From: Acidobacteriota bacterium
GTDB taxonomy: Bacteria > Acidobacteriota > Vicinamibacteria > Vicinamibacterales > UBA823
Direction: 5' to 3'
NCBI GenBank assembly: GCA_002730525.1
Contig: PCAK01000044.1
Location: 124,001 to 188,000 of the forward strand
DNA: 64,000 nucleotides
Below are positions 25,707 through 28,734 of the stretch, one piece after another (position 1 is the stretch's first letter; each line of letters opens with the position of its first letter). The notes beneath the pieces were generated by a model that saw only the letters and a list, made by a program, of their open reading frames with translations, was not told where the DNA came from and did no database searches. Position numbers and translations under genes: made by a program.

Positions 25707-26474
25707 TCAACTCGCTCGGTAGCCCTCGAGATCGAGCAACGCCTGTTTTACCGCAGCTCCGCCCACATATCCGCCCAGCTGGCCGCCGGCGCGAACGACG
25801 CGATGGCAGGGGATGACGATCGGCACCGGATTCCTCCCCAGCGCGGTCCCCACAGCCCGCCCGGCACCCGGCCGACCGAGCCGTCGAGCCAGCGACCCGT
25901 AGCTGATCGCCAGGCCGAACGGAACCGCGTGGGCCAGCCGCAGCACCCGGCCGGTGAACGGTGTCAGACCTCTGAGGTCGGTCGGCACGGAGAACGTCCG
26001 GGTTCGACCGGCGAAGTAGGCCGTGAACTCGCTGCGGACCTCGTTCAACGCCGTGTCGTCACGCCAGACCTCCGGCGCGCGCTGGGCAAGACGCCGCCGG
26101 TAGTCGCTGTCCCGTCGGACACCGAACGCGACGTCACACAGACCCCGATCGGACATCCCGAAGAAGATCTGGCCTACGGGTGATCGCCACGAACTGAAGT
26201 GGACCGGCGGCTGACCGATCCGCTCGAACCCGATGCGCAGGCGCTGGCGGGCCGCGGCGAGGTCAGCCTGTGTGACCAGTGCTTCGGTCCGCGTGCCGAC
26301 CTCGTCGAGCGCCTCGACCGCCCGCTCCACCTCGGGCCAGACGCCGGCACAGCGTCCACAGCTGCGCGCATGGCGAGCCGCGAGACCTCGCGTCCGACGG
26401 TCGGCGTCGCCAACCAATGCCGCCTCGACGGCGGTCGCGAACGTTGCGCAGGCTGTGGTCAGCCTCGTGGTCAT
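25707..26474 (-). CDS. Zinc-finger (anti-sigma-like) / methylated-DNA cysteine methyltransferase fusion
   Basis: A 255-residue protein with two parts. Residues 1-60 contain H35-x3-C39-x2-C42 in a helical setting, the signature of zinc-binding anti-sigma (ZAS/zf-HC2) domains. Residues 95-255 are a complete Ogt/MGMT domain, with SPVGQIFFG, the helix-turn-helix ISYGSLARRLGRPGAGRAVG and the methyl acceptor C223 in VIPCHRVV. MGMT enzymes transfer O6-alkyl groups from guanine to their own cysteine irreversibly. The ATG at 26474 overlaps the stop of the upstream ECF sigma gene by 4 nt, so the two are translationally coupled. Inference: the product may be a sigma inhibitor whose state reports DNA alkylation. 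Alternatively the finger may only help DNA binding. Confidence 0.8.
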   Translation of the reverse strand: MTTRLTTACATFATAVEAALVGDADRRTRGLAARHARSCGRCAGVWPEVERAVEALDEVGTRTEALVTQADLAAARQRLRIGFERIGQPPVHFSSWRSPVGQIFFGMSDRGLCDVAFGVRRDSDYRRRLAQRAPEVWRDDTALNEVRSEFTAYFAGRTRTFSVPTDLRGLTPFTGRVLRLAHAVPFGLAISYGSLARRLGRPGAGRAVGTALGRNPVPIVIPCHRVVRAGGQLGGYVGGAAVKQALLDLEGYRAS

Positions 26475-26971
26475 GGTTGTTCTCCCCTCGGCGTCAGCGC
26501 GCGTCTGACGCGCTTGGCGGCCTGATAGACATGGGCTCTGGCTGCAGTGGCGGTGCACCCGAGTGACGCGCCGATGTCGGCGTACGACCGGCCCTGCAGA
26601 TTCCGTTGCAGAAACGCCGACCGCTGACGTCGCGACAGCGTCTGGACGACGCGCCGGAGCGCGAGCGTGGCCGCCGCGTCGGGCTGCGCGGTCGATCCGA
26701 ACCACGCTTCGAAATCCTGGCCGAGCGACGTCTCACGTCGGCAGTGCGCGGTGTGCCGATGATTCAGAAACGCATTGGTGGCAATCCGATACAGCCACGC
26801 GCGATGATTCGATCCCGCTCGCAGCCGGCGAAAGGCCTTGAACGCGCAGAGGAACGTCTCCTGGAACAGGTCGTCGGCGTCCGCCCGGTTGCCGGTCAGC
26901 CGTACGAGGTAACGCAACAACTCGGCCTGATGCGCGTCGATGAGATCGCCGAATGTCGTCGTGCCTCTCAC
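26471..26971 (-). CDS. ECF-family RNA polymerase sigma factor
   Basis: A 166-residue sigma factor with only regions 2 and 4. Region 2 is visible as DLIDAHQAELLRYLVRLTGN, ADDLFQETFLCAFKAFRRLR and NHRAWLYRIATNAFLNHRH; region 4 as ALRRVVQTLSRRQRSAFLQR and YADIGASLGCTATAARAHVY. The GTG at 26971 fits the family length; a TTG further upstream would add 29 residues with no homology. The downstream gene, overlapping by 4 nt, occupies the usual anti-sigma position but is fused to an Ogt domain. The divergent neighbour is murJ. Confidence 0.88.
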   Translation of the reverse strand: MRGTTTFGDLIDAHQAELLRYLVRLTGNRADADDLFQETFLCAFKAFRRLRAGSNHRAWLYRIATNAFLNHRHTAHCRRETSLGQDFEAWFGSTAQPDAAATLALRRVVQTLSRRQRSAFLQRNLQGRSYADIGASLGCTATAARAHVYQAAKRVRRALTPRGEQP

Positions 26972-27084
26972 TGCTGGATTACAACCCCAGATCAGGCTCG
27001 TTGTGTAAGACGGCGGAACCACGCTGTAGCGTCGAACCAGGCGGAGCCGACGTCCCAAAGCCCTATGTTAGGCTGGCACAGCCG

Positions 27085-28734
27085 ATGACCGCCGCACCGC
27101 CCGCCCCGTCTGTCCGCGGGTCGACGCCCGAACCCCCACCTTCACCCTCAGGTCAGCTCGTCCGATCGGCCAGCGTCGTCGGCGCCGCGACGATGACAAG
27201 CCGCCTCCTCGGCCTCGTCCGTGACCAGGTGCTGGCCTACCTGTTCGGCGCGGGCAACGCCATGGACGCCTTCTATATCGGATTCCGCATTCCGAATATG
27301 ATGCGCGACCTGTTCGCTGAGGGCGCGATGAGTGCGGCGTTCGTGCCGACCTTCACCCGGCGGCTGACCACACAGGGCCGCGCTCAGGCGTGGCATCTCG
27401 GCAACCAGTTGATCAACGCCCTGCTGCTAGCCACCGGGCTGATCGTTGTCGTTGGGATCGTCTTCGCGCGGCCACTCGTGACGCTGCTCGCTGGGGACTT
27501 CGGCGACGTCGAGGGCAAGCTGGAGCTCACGACGCAGCTCACGCGCATCATGCTGCCGTTTCTCAGCCTGGTGGCGATCGCCGCGGTGCTGATGGGCATG
27601 TTGAATTCGCTGCAGCAGTTCTTCACGCCCGCGCTCTCGCCAGCCATGTTCAACCTCGCCATGATCGCGAGCGGATTCGCGCTGGTTCCTGTCATGCCGA
27701 GCCTGGGACTGCCCCCAATCACGGGCATGGGCCTCGGCGCGCTGGTCGGCGGCGTCGGACAGGTGCTGCTCCAGTGGCCCGCCCTGCACCGCGCCGGCTT
27801 CCGCTATCGCCCGACGCTCGACCCGCGCGACCCGGGTCTGCGCGAGGTTCTCCGCCTGATGGGACCCGGCACGCTGGGCCTTGCAGCCGTGCAGATCAAC
27901 CTGCTGGTCAACACCGTGCTCGCCACCGGCGAGGGCACCGGCGCCGTATCGTGGCTCAGCTACGCGTTTCGGCTGATGTACCTGCCGATCGGCCTGTTCG
28001 GCGTCTCGATTGCGACCGCGGCGCTGCCGACCCTCGCGCGCCAGGCGGCCCGCCAGGCGCCGGACGAGATGCGGCGGACGGTCTCGAGCGGGTTGCGGCT
28101 GATGCTCATGCTGAACGTCCCGGCGACCGTCGGTCTCGTAGCGCTCGCCGCACCGATCGTTGCCCTCATCTTCGAGCGCGGCAACTTCACCGCGGCCGAT
28201 ACCGCAGCTACCGCCGCGGCCCTGACCTTCTACGCGCCGGGGCTGCTCGGCTATTCGGCGGTCAAGATCGCCGTGCCGACCTTCTACGCCCTCAAGGACA
28301 GCCGGACGCCCGCACTCGTCAGTATCGCGTCCGTCGGCCTGAACGTCGCACTGAACCTGGTGCTGGTTCGGTTCATGGGCTTCCGCGGCCTGGCTCTGGG
28401 CACTTCGATCGCCGCCCTGCTGAACGCGGGTGCCCTGCTCGTTCTGCTGCAGCGTCGGTTCGAAGGATTGGAGGCCCAGCGAATCACGGTCGCCTTCTTC
28501 AAGATCAGCGTCGCCGCGGCGGCGATGGGCTGGGCCGCACTGGCGACCGAGCGTTGGCTCGCCACGTTCTGGATCGATCCCAGCACATGGCAGCGGGCGA
28601 TCGGTGTCGGTTCGGCGATTGGCGTGGGCGTCGTCGTGCTCGCCGGCGCCGCGCGGGTGCTGCGGATCGAGGAGTTCGACGAAGCGGTCCGCCGGCTGAC
28701 GGCGCGGCTGTCGACACCACGCTCCGCCGTCTGA
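27085..28734 (+). CDS. murJ: Lipid II flippase MurJ
   Basis: MurJ flips lipid II across the cytoplasmic membrane for peptidoglycan assembly. It has 549 residues and about 14 hydrophobic helices. The N-terminus after a proline-rich tail reads SASVVGAATMTSRLLGLVRD, then AMDAFYIGFRIPNMMRDLFA and EGAMSAAFVPTFTRRL, all classic MurJ motifs; FTPALSPAMFNLAMI and AFRLMYLPIGLFGVSIATA are also typical. The ATG at 27085 was chosen over a longer frame that runs into the ECF sigma gene. It completes the envelope set with the dcw operon. Confidence 0.95.
   Translation: MTAAPPAPSVRGSTPEPPPSPSGQLVRSASVVGAATMTSRLLGLVRDQVLAYLFGAGNAMDAFYIGFRIPNMMRDLFAEGAMSAAFVPTFTRRLTTQGRAQAWHLGNQLINALLLATGLIVVVGIVFARPLVTLLAGDFGDVEGKLELTTQLTRIMLPFLSLVAIAAVLMGMLNSLQQFFTPALSPAMFNLAMIASGFALVPVMPSLGLPPITGMGLGALVGGVGQVLLQWPALHRAGFRYRPTLDPRDPGLREVLRLMGPGTLGLAAVQINLLVNTVLATGEGTGAVSWLSYAFRLMYLPIGLFGVSIATAALPTLARQAARQAPDEMRRTVSSGLRLMLMLNVPATVGLVALAAPIVALIFERGNFTAADTAATAAALTFYAPGLLGYSAVKIAVPTFYALKDSRTPALVSIASVGLNVALNLVLVRFMGFRGLALGTSIAALLNAGALLVLLQRRFEGLEAQRITVAFFKISVAAAAMGWAALATERWLATFWIDPSTWQRAIGVGSAIGVGVVVLAGAARVLRIEEFDEAVRRLTARLSTPRSAV

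Follow-up and report, generated by a model that had tools for sequence, protein, structure and literature searches.

An ECF sigma factor encoded next to a zinc finger-MGMT fusion: a candidate sigma/anti-sigma pair with a single-use alkyl-acceptor domain

Gene organization of the locus

The window, a stretch of 64,000 nucleotides from an Acidobacteriota genome, carries an ECF sigma factor gene directly followed by a gene whose product joins a finger-bearing N-terminal domain to an MGMT (Ogt) domain. The features of this locus are the following:

26471..26971, minus strand: ECF sigma factor gene, GTG start, 166 aa, with Sigma70_r2 and Sigma70_r4_2 (alignment A3, 21 orthologues)
26471-26473, minus strand: sigma stop codon TGA, from the sequence
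26471..26474, minus strand: ATGA overlap of 4 nt between sigma stop and fusion start, from the sequence, recurring at many homologous loci
25707..26474, minus strand: gene of the predicted anti-sigma-MGMT fusion, 255 aa, ATG at 26474
26349..26450, minus strand: zinc signature C9-x25-H35-x3-C39-x2-C42, invariant in 37 sequences and backed by PDB profile matches
26217..26270, minus strand: predicted helix 4, residues 69-86 (AlphaFold2 secondary structure and conservation)
25710..26213, minus strand: MGMT/Ogt domain, residues 88-255 (Pfam; Foldseek and VIA-align to 1SFE and M. tuberculosis OGT)
25806..25808, minus strand: codon of the acceptor C223 in the PCHR motif, invariant in alignments A1 and A5
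26980..27008, minus strand: promoter-like element TTACACA-N13-GGGGTTGTA, 8 nt before the sigma GTG and shared across phyla

The 4-nt overlap between the sigma stop and the start of the 255-residue protein had been described in a first-pass annotation of this DNA and is found as the ATGA above; it is a predicted translational coupling of sigma and fusion. In the ORF list, the sigma frame begins further out, at TTG 27058, and the promoter-like element falls within that extension. The GTG at 26971, already chosen as the start in the annotation, is therefore favored. A murJ-like gene (window 26953-28734) lies divergent from the sigma gene, and the same neighbor is found in genomes of family f9 (L120, L272).

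The sigma factor and its association with Ogt

The product of the sigma gene matches the Pfam profiles Sigma70_r2 (3.3e-16) and Sigma70_r4_2 (8.8e-11). It has the composition of an ECF sigma factor, namely regions 2 and 4, no region 3 and a small size (166 aa). A scan of species genomes for relatives yielded 80 loci, and the Ogt genes of the window's order were surveyed as well. An ECF sigma gene is located directly 5' of Ogt at many loci of Acidobacteriota, Rokubacteria, Myxococcota, Chloroflexi and Actinomycetota. A search for the fusion beside ECF genes elsewhere, proposed together with the annotation, showed the same ECF sigma adjoining it in other phyla.

Searches with the sigma profile were positive in 4 of 297 Acidobacteriota, 7 of 251 Chloroflexi-group and 49 of 95 Rokubacteria-group genomes. 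Ogt directly follows the sigma gene on its 3' side in 37 of the 41 loci examined; at three others the contig stops within 400 nt, and at the last one (G016) the sigma and Ogt frames are joined by an apparent deletion. In the phylum sample, the family sigma was encountered at Ogt loci only, and every Rokubacteria-group locus with a readable Ogt possesses the full zinc signature. The G016 locus (L008:343-2817) carries sigma and finger in one open frame as a result of the apparent deletion, and its MGMT frame is shifted too.

The N-terminal zinc domain

The first 87 residues of the fusion contain C9, H35, C39 and C42. The annotation had placed the finger residues H35, C39 and C42 exactly and had overlooked C9, the fourth ligand. 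All four are shared without exception by the 37 sequences aligned, which come from Acidobacteriota and Rokubacteria/Methylomirabilota, and the Cys-His spacing is exactly 25 in 37 of 37 distinct ORFs, in a search allowing 23-28. Because the ligands are invariant and this spacing is fixed, the zinc signature exceeds what chance would produce. The arrangement C-x25-H-x3-C-x2-C also occurs in RsrA, a zinc anti-sigma factor with the ligands C11/H37/C41/C44.

Pfam zf-HC2 gave no match on the window fusion alone, and profiles of homologues were therefore used. This family matches 26 of 35 full-length homologues at E values up to 0.1 (best 7.6e-07), so that the anticipated combination of zf-HC2 and MGMT exists among the relatives but was not detected in the window protein itself. 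When the profile of the domain was compared with PDB sequences, the top four matches were RsiW (1.1e-5), DdvA (0.0035), RsrA (0.012) and RslA (0.054); ChrR was found at an E value of 0.39.

AlphaFold2 predicts N-terminal helices at residues 7-20, 26-38, 40-62 and 69-85 (pLDDT 81). Helix 4 links the zinc bundle to MGMT, and its residues R76 and L79 are nearly invariant. According to coevolution work, helix 1 of such factors contacts sigma4 and helix 4 contacts sigma2 (PMC7406223); the segment that joins MGMT in the window fusion is helix 4. A structure search with the N-terminal domain placed RsiW on top in Foldseek with a weak match (E 4-6) and a VIA-align Z of 3.9; this fold comparison was set aside as evidence, the unrelated helical proteins Sbi and PTS IIA exceeding RsiW by Z.

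Judged by its sequence, the finger is an anti-sigma domain. An anti-sigma function of the fusion is well supported by these comparisons, and we consider it highly probable that the protein binds and inhibits its sigma factor.

The MGMT domain and Ada-type acceptors

The remainder of the fusion matches Pfam DNA_binding_1 (PF01035, 1.3e-28) and Methyltransf_1N (PF02870, 1.3e-06) and carries C223 within PCHR, which upholds the initial reading of a full MGMT domain with this acceptor. Residues 88-255 superpose on the C-terminal domain of E. coli Ada (1SFE) and on M. tuberculosis OGT (4WX9) with Z about 21; in the structure search with the full-length model, the match list was filled by MGMT. C223 and the neighboring active-site residues are invariant in the alignments, and the alkyl-transfer site is predicted to be intact.

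Of 35 homologues, 25 carry a C-terminal Ada_Zn_binding domain (PF02805), including most of those from Rokubacteria, and the same Ada zinc domain also occurs in the Actinomycetota pairs L100/L108. In the window fusion, Pfam detected neither this N-Ada zinc methyl-acceptor domain nor an AraC-type DNA-binding domain. The window's genome encodes a separate, ordinary Ogt as well.

Joint loss or gain of sigma and finger

Within two families of Acidobacteriota, f1 and f9, the sigma gene co-occurs with the C-x25-H-x3-C-x2-C signature; the Ogt genes of G002, G004-G006, G008, G037, G138, G140 and G148 have neither. The sigma-profile search in the finger-less f1/f9 genomes did not find the family sigma and returned generic ECF sigmas only; the two groups are separated by a gap in score, intact family members reaching 1e-53 or better and the others 1e-38 or weaker. 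On the MGMT-domain tree, f1 and f9 provide four independent contrasts, in each of which the finger goes with the sigma, although the sign test (p 0.125) is not significant because four independent pairs are too few. G148 has lost sigma and finger, both of which are retained in its sister genomes G147 and G149, and its Ogt opens with the linker helix and is preceded by a perfect copy of the promoter element.

Homologues keeping Ogt without the finger residues had been named in the annotation as an argument against its interpretation. Those of f1 and f9 are without the sigma as well, in agreement with the anti-sigma reading; in G151, by exception, the fused Ogt is intact and the sigma frame is broken, possibly through an assembly error. 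The zinc site is also missing, with MGMT kept, from the sigma-Ogt pairs of Chloroflexi, Myxococcota and gp18, and these pairs retain sigma, Ogt and promoter element.

Promoter-like element and predicted targets

The pattern TTWCACR-N13-GGKGTYDYA has a single match in the window (26980-27008), where 0.03 are expected, and a sigma transcript starting from it would apparently be leaderless. Among 53 distinct sigma genes, 35 have the element on their 5' side, and it was found in none of the shuffles. Its spacing is identical in Acidobacteriota, Rokubacteria, Myxococcota and Chloroflexi, and 27 Rokubacteria genomes contain about 70 exact matches versus 0 for the reversed pattern. Since an element 8 nt before the sigma start recurs across phyla, the operon probably drives itself, and use of this element by the sigma is highly probable.

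Sites away from the sigma gene usually precede predicted target genes by 5-40 nt, the regulon being predicted from motif matches. These genes encode DUF1706 (ClbS/DfsB family) proteins, DinB_2 and other DinB-superfamily proteins, DUF2652 proteins, universal stress proteins, an AraC regulator and, behind Ogt, small membrane proteins. ClbS, a member of DUF1706, detoxifies colibactin, a genotoxin, and some members of the DinB superfamily are thiol S-transferases (PMC10693628). The window's genome has a single other strong site, 7 nt before a PLP decarboxylase gene.

Several details concern individual sites. The decarboxylase element, found in the window's genome and in the sister species (L141:1501-1529 and L175:1501-1529), has both boxes conserved and the spacer altered. 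In Rokubacteria, the most frequent predicted targets are DUF2652 'LVLADISGFTAF' proteins (L236, L240, L242, L246, L247, L249, L251, L254-L257, L259 and L262), and a second copy of the element occurs just behind the Ogt gene, mostly 5' of a small membrane protein (L068:4055, L073:3938, L082:4397, L264, L266-L269). A one-mismatch site before an Ada-AlkA-like gene of G165 (L168) was discounted: its distance from the start is at least 130 nt, and in the controls one-mismatch matches arise by chance about once per genome.

Proposed mechanism and alternative explanations

The locus likely encodes a sigma/anti-sigma pair that drives transcription from its own promoter, and on balance we favor an anti-sigma factor that doubles as a single-use DNA alkyl-acceptor enzyme. 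Most likely, the sigma and the anti-sigma-MGMT protein together constitute an Ada-like alkylation response. The N-terminal zinc helical domain, comprising helices 1-3 and the linker helix 4, would keep the ECF sigma inactive. Upon transfer of an alkyl group from damaged DNA to C223, the MGMT domain would be altered in shape or destabilized, and this change would be transmitted to helix 4, directly joined to the MGMT beta-sheet, so that the sigma is freed. The freed sigma would transcribe from TTWCACR-N13-GGKGTYDYA, its own operon first, and the fresh anti-sigma-MGMT protein would repair further damage before switching the sigma off again.

To alkylation as the release signal we assign a probability of one half or marginally above. 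The support is circumstantial: the active site is intact in every member, and promoter-like sites precede genes of the ClbS/DinB families. Against an alkylation regulon, the other strong target in the window's genome is the PLP decarboxylase gene and not an alkylation-repair gene. The MGMT domain is favored as the signal-receiving part because it is kept wherever the sigma is, because several lineages lack the zinc site and because Rokubacteria add the zinc methyl-acceptor domain of Ada.

The zinc site itself could be the sensor, through redox chemistry or through the metal loss also raised in the annotation, since redox stress is the signal for RsrA and other zinc anti-sigma factors of its kind. 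The Cys3-His site would then be oxidized or alkylated directly by an oxidant or electrophile, as in RsrA, and would release the sigma, with MGMT as output only. The invariance of all four ligands agrees with this explanation, as does the frequency of redox sensing among soluble zinc anti-sigma factors (PMC7406223), and targets resembling DinB/mycothiol transferases and a universal stress protein would also be expected in a thiol-stress regulon. On the other hand, the Chloroflexi, Myxococcota and gp18 pairs keep the whole arrangement of sigma, Ogt and promoter element without the zinc site, fusion to the inhibitor is not required of an output enzyme, Rokubacteria add the Ada methyl-acceptor domain, and the zinc site of RsiW is structural (PMC7406223). 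We regard direct sensing by the zinc site as possible, with roughly one chance in four.

A sigma/anti-sigma pair responding to some other signal, for instance proteolysis or binding of MGMT to DNA without methyl transfer, appears improbable. The pairing and the identity of the domains leave the signal unnamed, and MGMT, which binds DNA, could signal by this contact; yet DNA binding alone would not require the invariance of the catalytic residues, C223 included. Very improbable is the absence of any inhibition, Ogt being a target gene in the sigma operon and the zinc domain aiding repair through stability or DNA contact: stand-alone Ogt enzymes are common and sigma operons often hold target genes, but the finger comes and goes with the sigma and not with Ogt, and its profile matches anti-sigma factors first.

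Relation to known systems

With the ZAS (class I) factors RsrA, ChrR, RsiW and RslA, the fusion shares the Hx3Cx2C motif and an upstream Cys, a predicted helical bundle and the position of its gene directly behind that of the sigma. We know of no MGMT domain in any of the four, and the second domain of ChrR is a cupin. M. tuberculosis Ogt (4WX9) and the Ada C-terminal domain (1SFE) have the same fold and active site as residues 88-255 and differ by having no anti-sigma domain. E. coli Ada likewise ties a single-use alkyl-acceptor domain to a transcription regulator in an apparently self-driven operon, and the Rokubacteria members have both of its acceptor domains. In contrast to Ada, the window system is devoid of an AraC DNA-binding domain and would work through a sigma factor, and the window protein is without the N-Ada zinc domain.

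The section on ECF122 in a 2022 review, following the classification of Casas-Pastor et al. 2021, places this group near 6-O-methylguanine DNA methyltransferases, with an example from Cellulomonas, no cognate anti-sigma factor and a mechanism described as unknown (PMC8999054). The likeness to the window system resides in the MGMT gene as conserved neighbor of an ECF sigma. The difference is that ECF122 is listed in that section without an anti-sigma factor and with no mention of a finger fusion, whereas the window sigma is followed by a finger-MGMT fusion. Within the texts retrieved by our literature search, no paper joining MGMT with an anti-sigma domain was found beyond this review. The annotation had named no described case; our search likewise returned none for the combination of MGMT and anti-sigma domain, whereas an ECF122-MGMT neighborhood is on record in the review section. 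The parts are known, and their combination and logic were not found described.

There is an even chance, in our estimation, that these proteins form a class of one-protein DNA-damage sensors, in which a suicidal repair enzyme is the anti-sigma factor and, once spent, induces its own replacement. With odds no better than balanced, such a class would span Acidobacteriota, Rokubacteria/Methylomirabilota, Chloroflexi, Myxococcota and Actinomycetota, the Rokubacteria version being Ada with its AraC part replaced by a sigma/anti-sigma module. The comparison suggests that a spent repair enzyme acts as an alkylation-response switch in many soil and marine bacteria. A testable mechanism is thereby offered for ECF sigmas beside MGMT genes. 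If true, it would link a suicidal repair enzyme to sigma control and mean that the Ada-type adaptive response exists in a second design, among lineages of which few members are in culture. From the promoter element, targets can be predicted directly in many genomes.

Two further gene arrangements were encountered. L100, L108 and L109 are sigma-Ogt pairs of the Actinomycetota type whose sigmas are distant, and they are possible members of ECF122. In the window's genome (L271:365-1694), a second, short Ogt-like PCHR protein is encoded immediately 5' of another ECF sigma gene.
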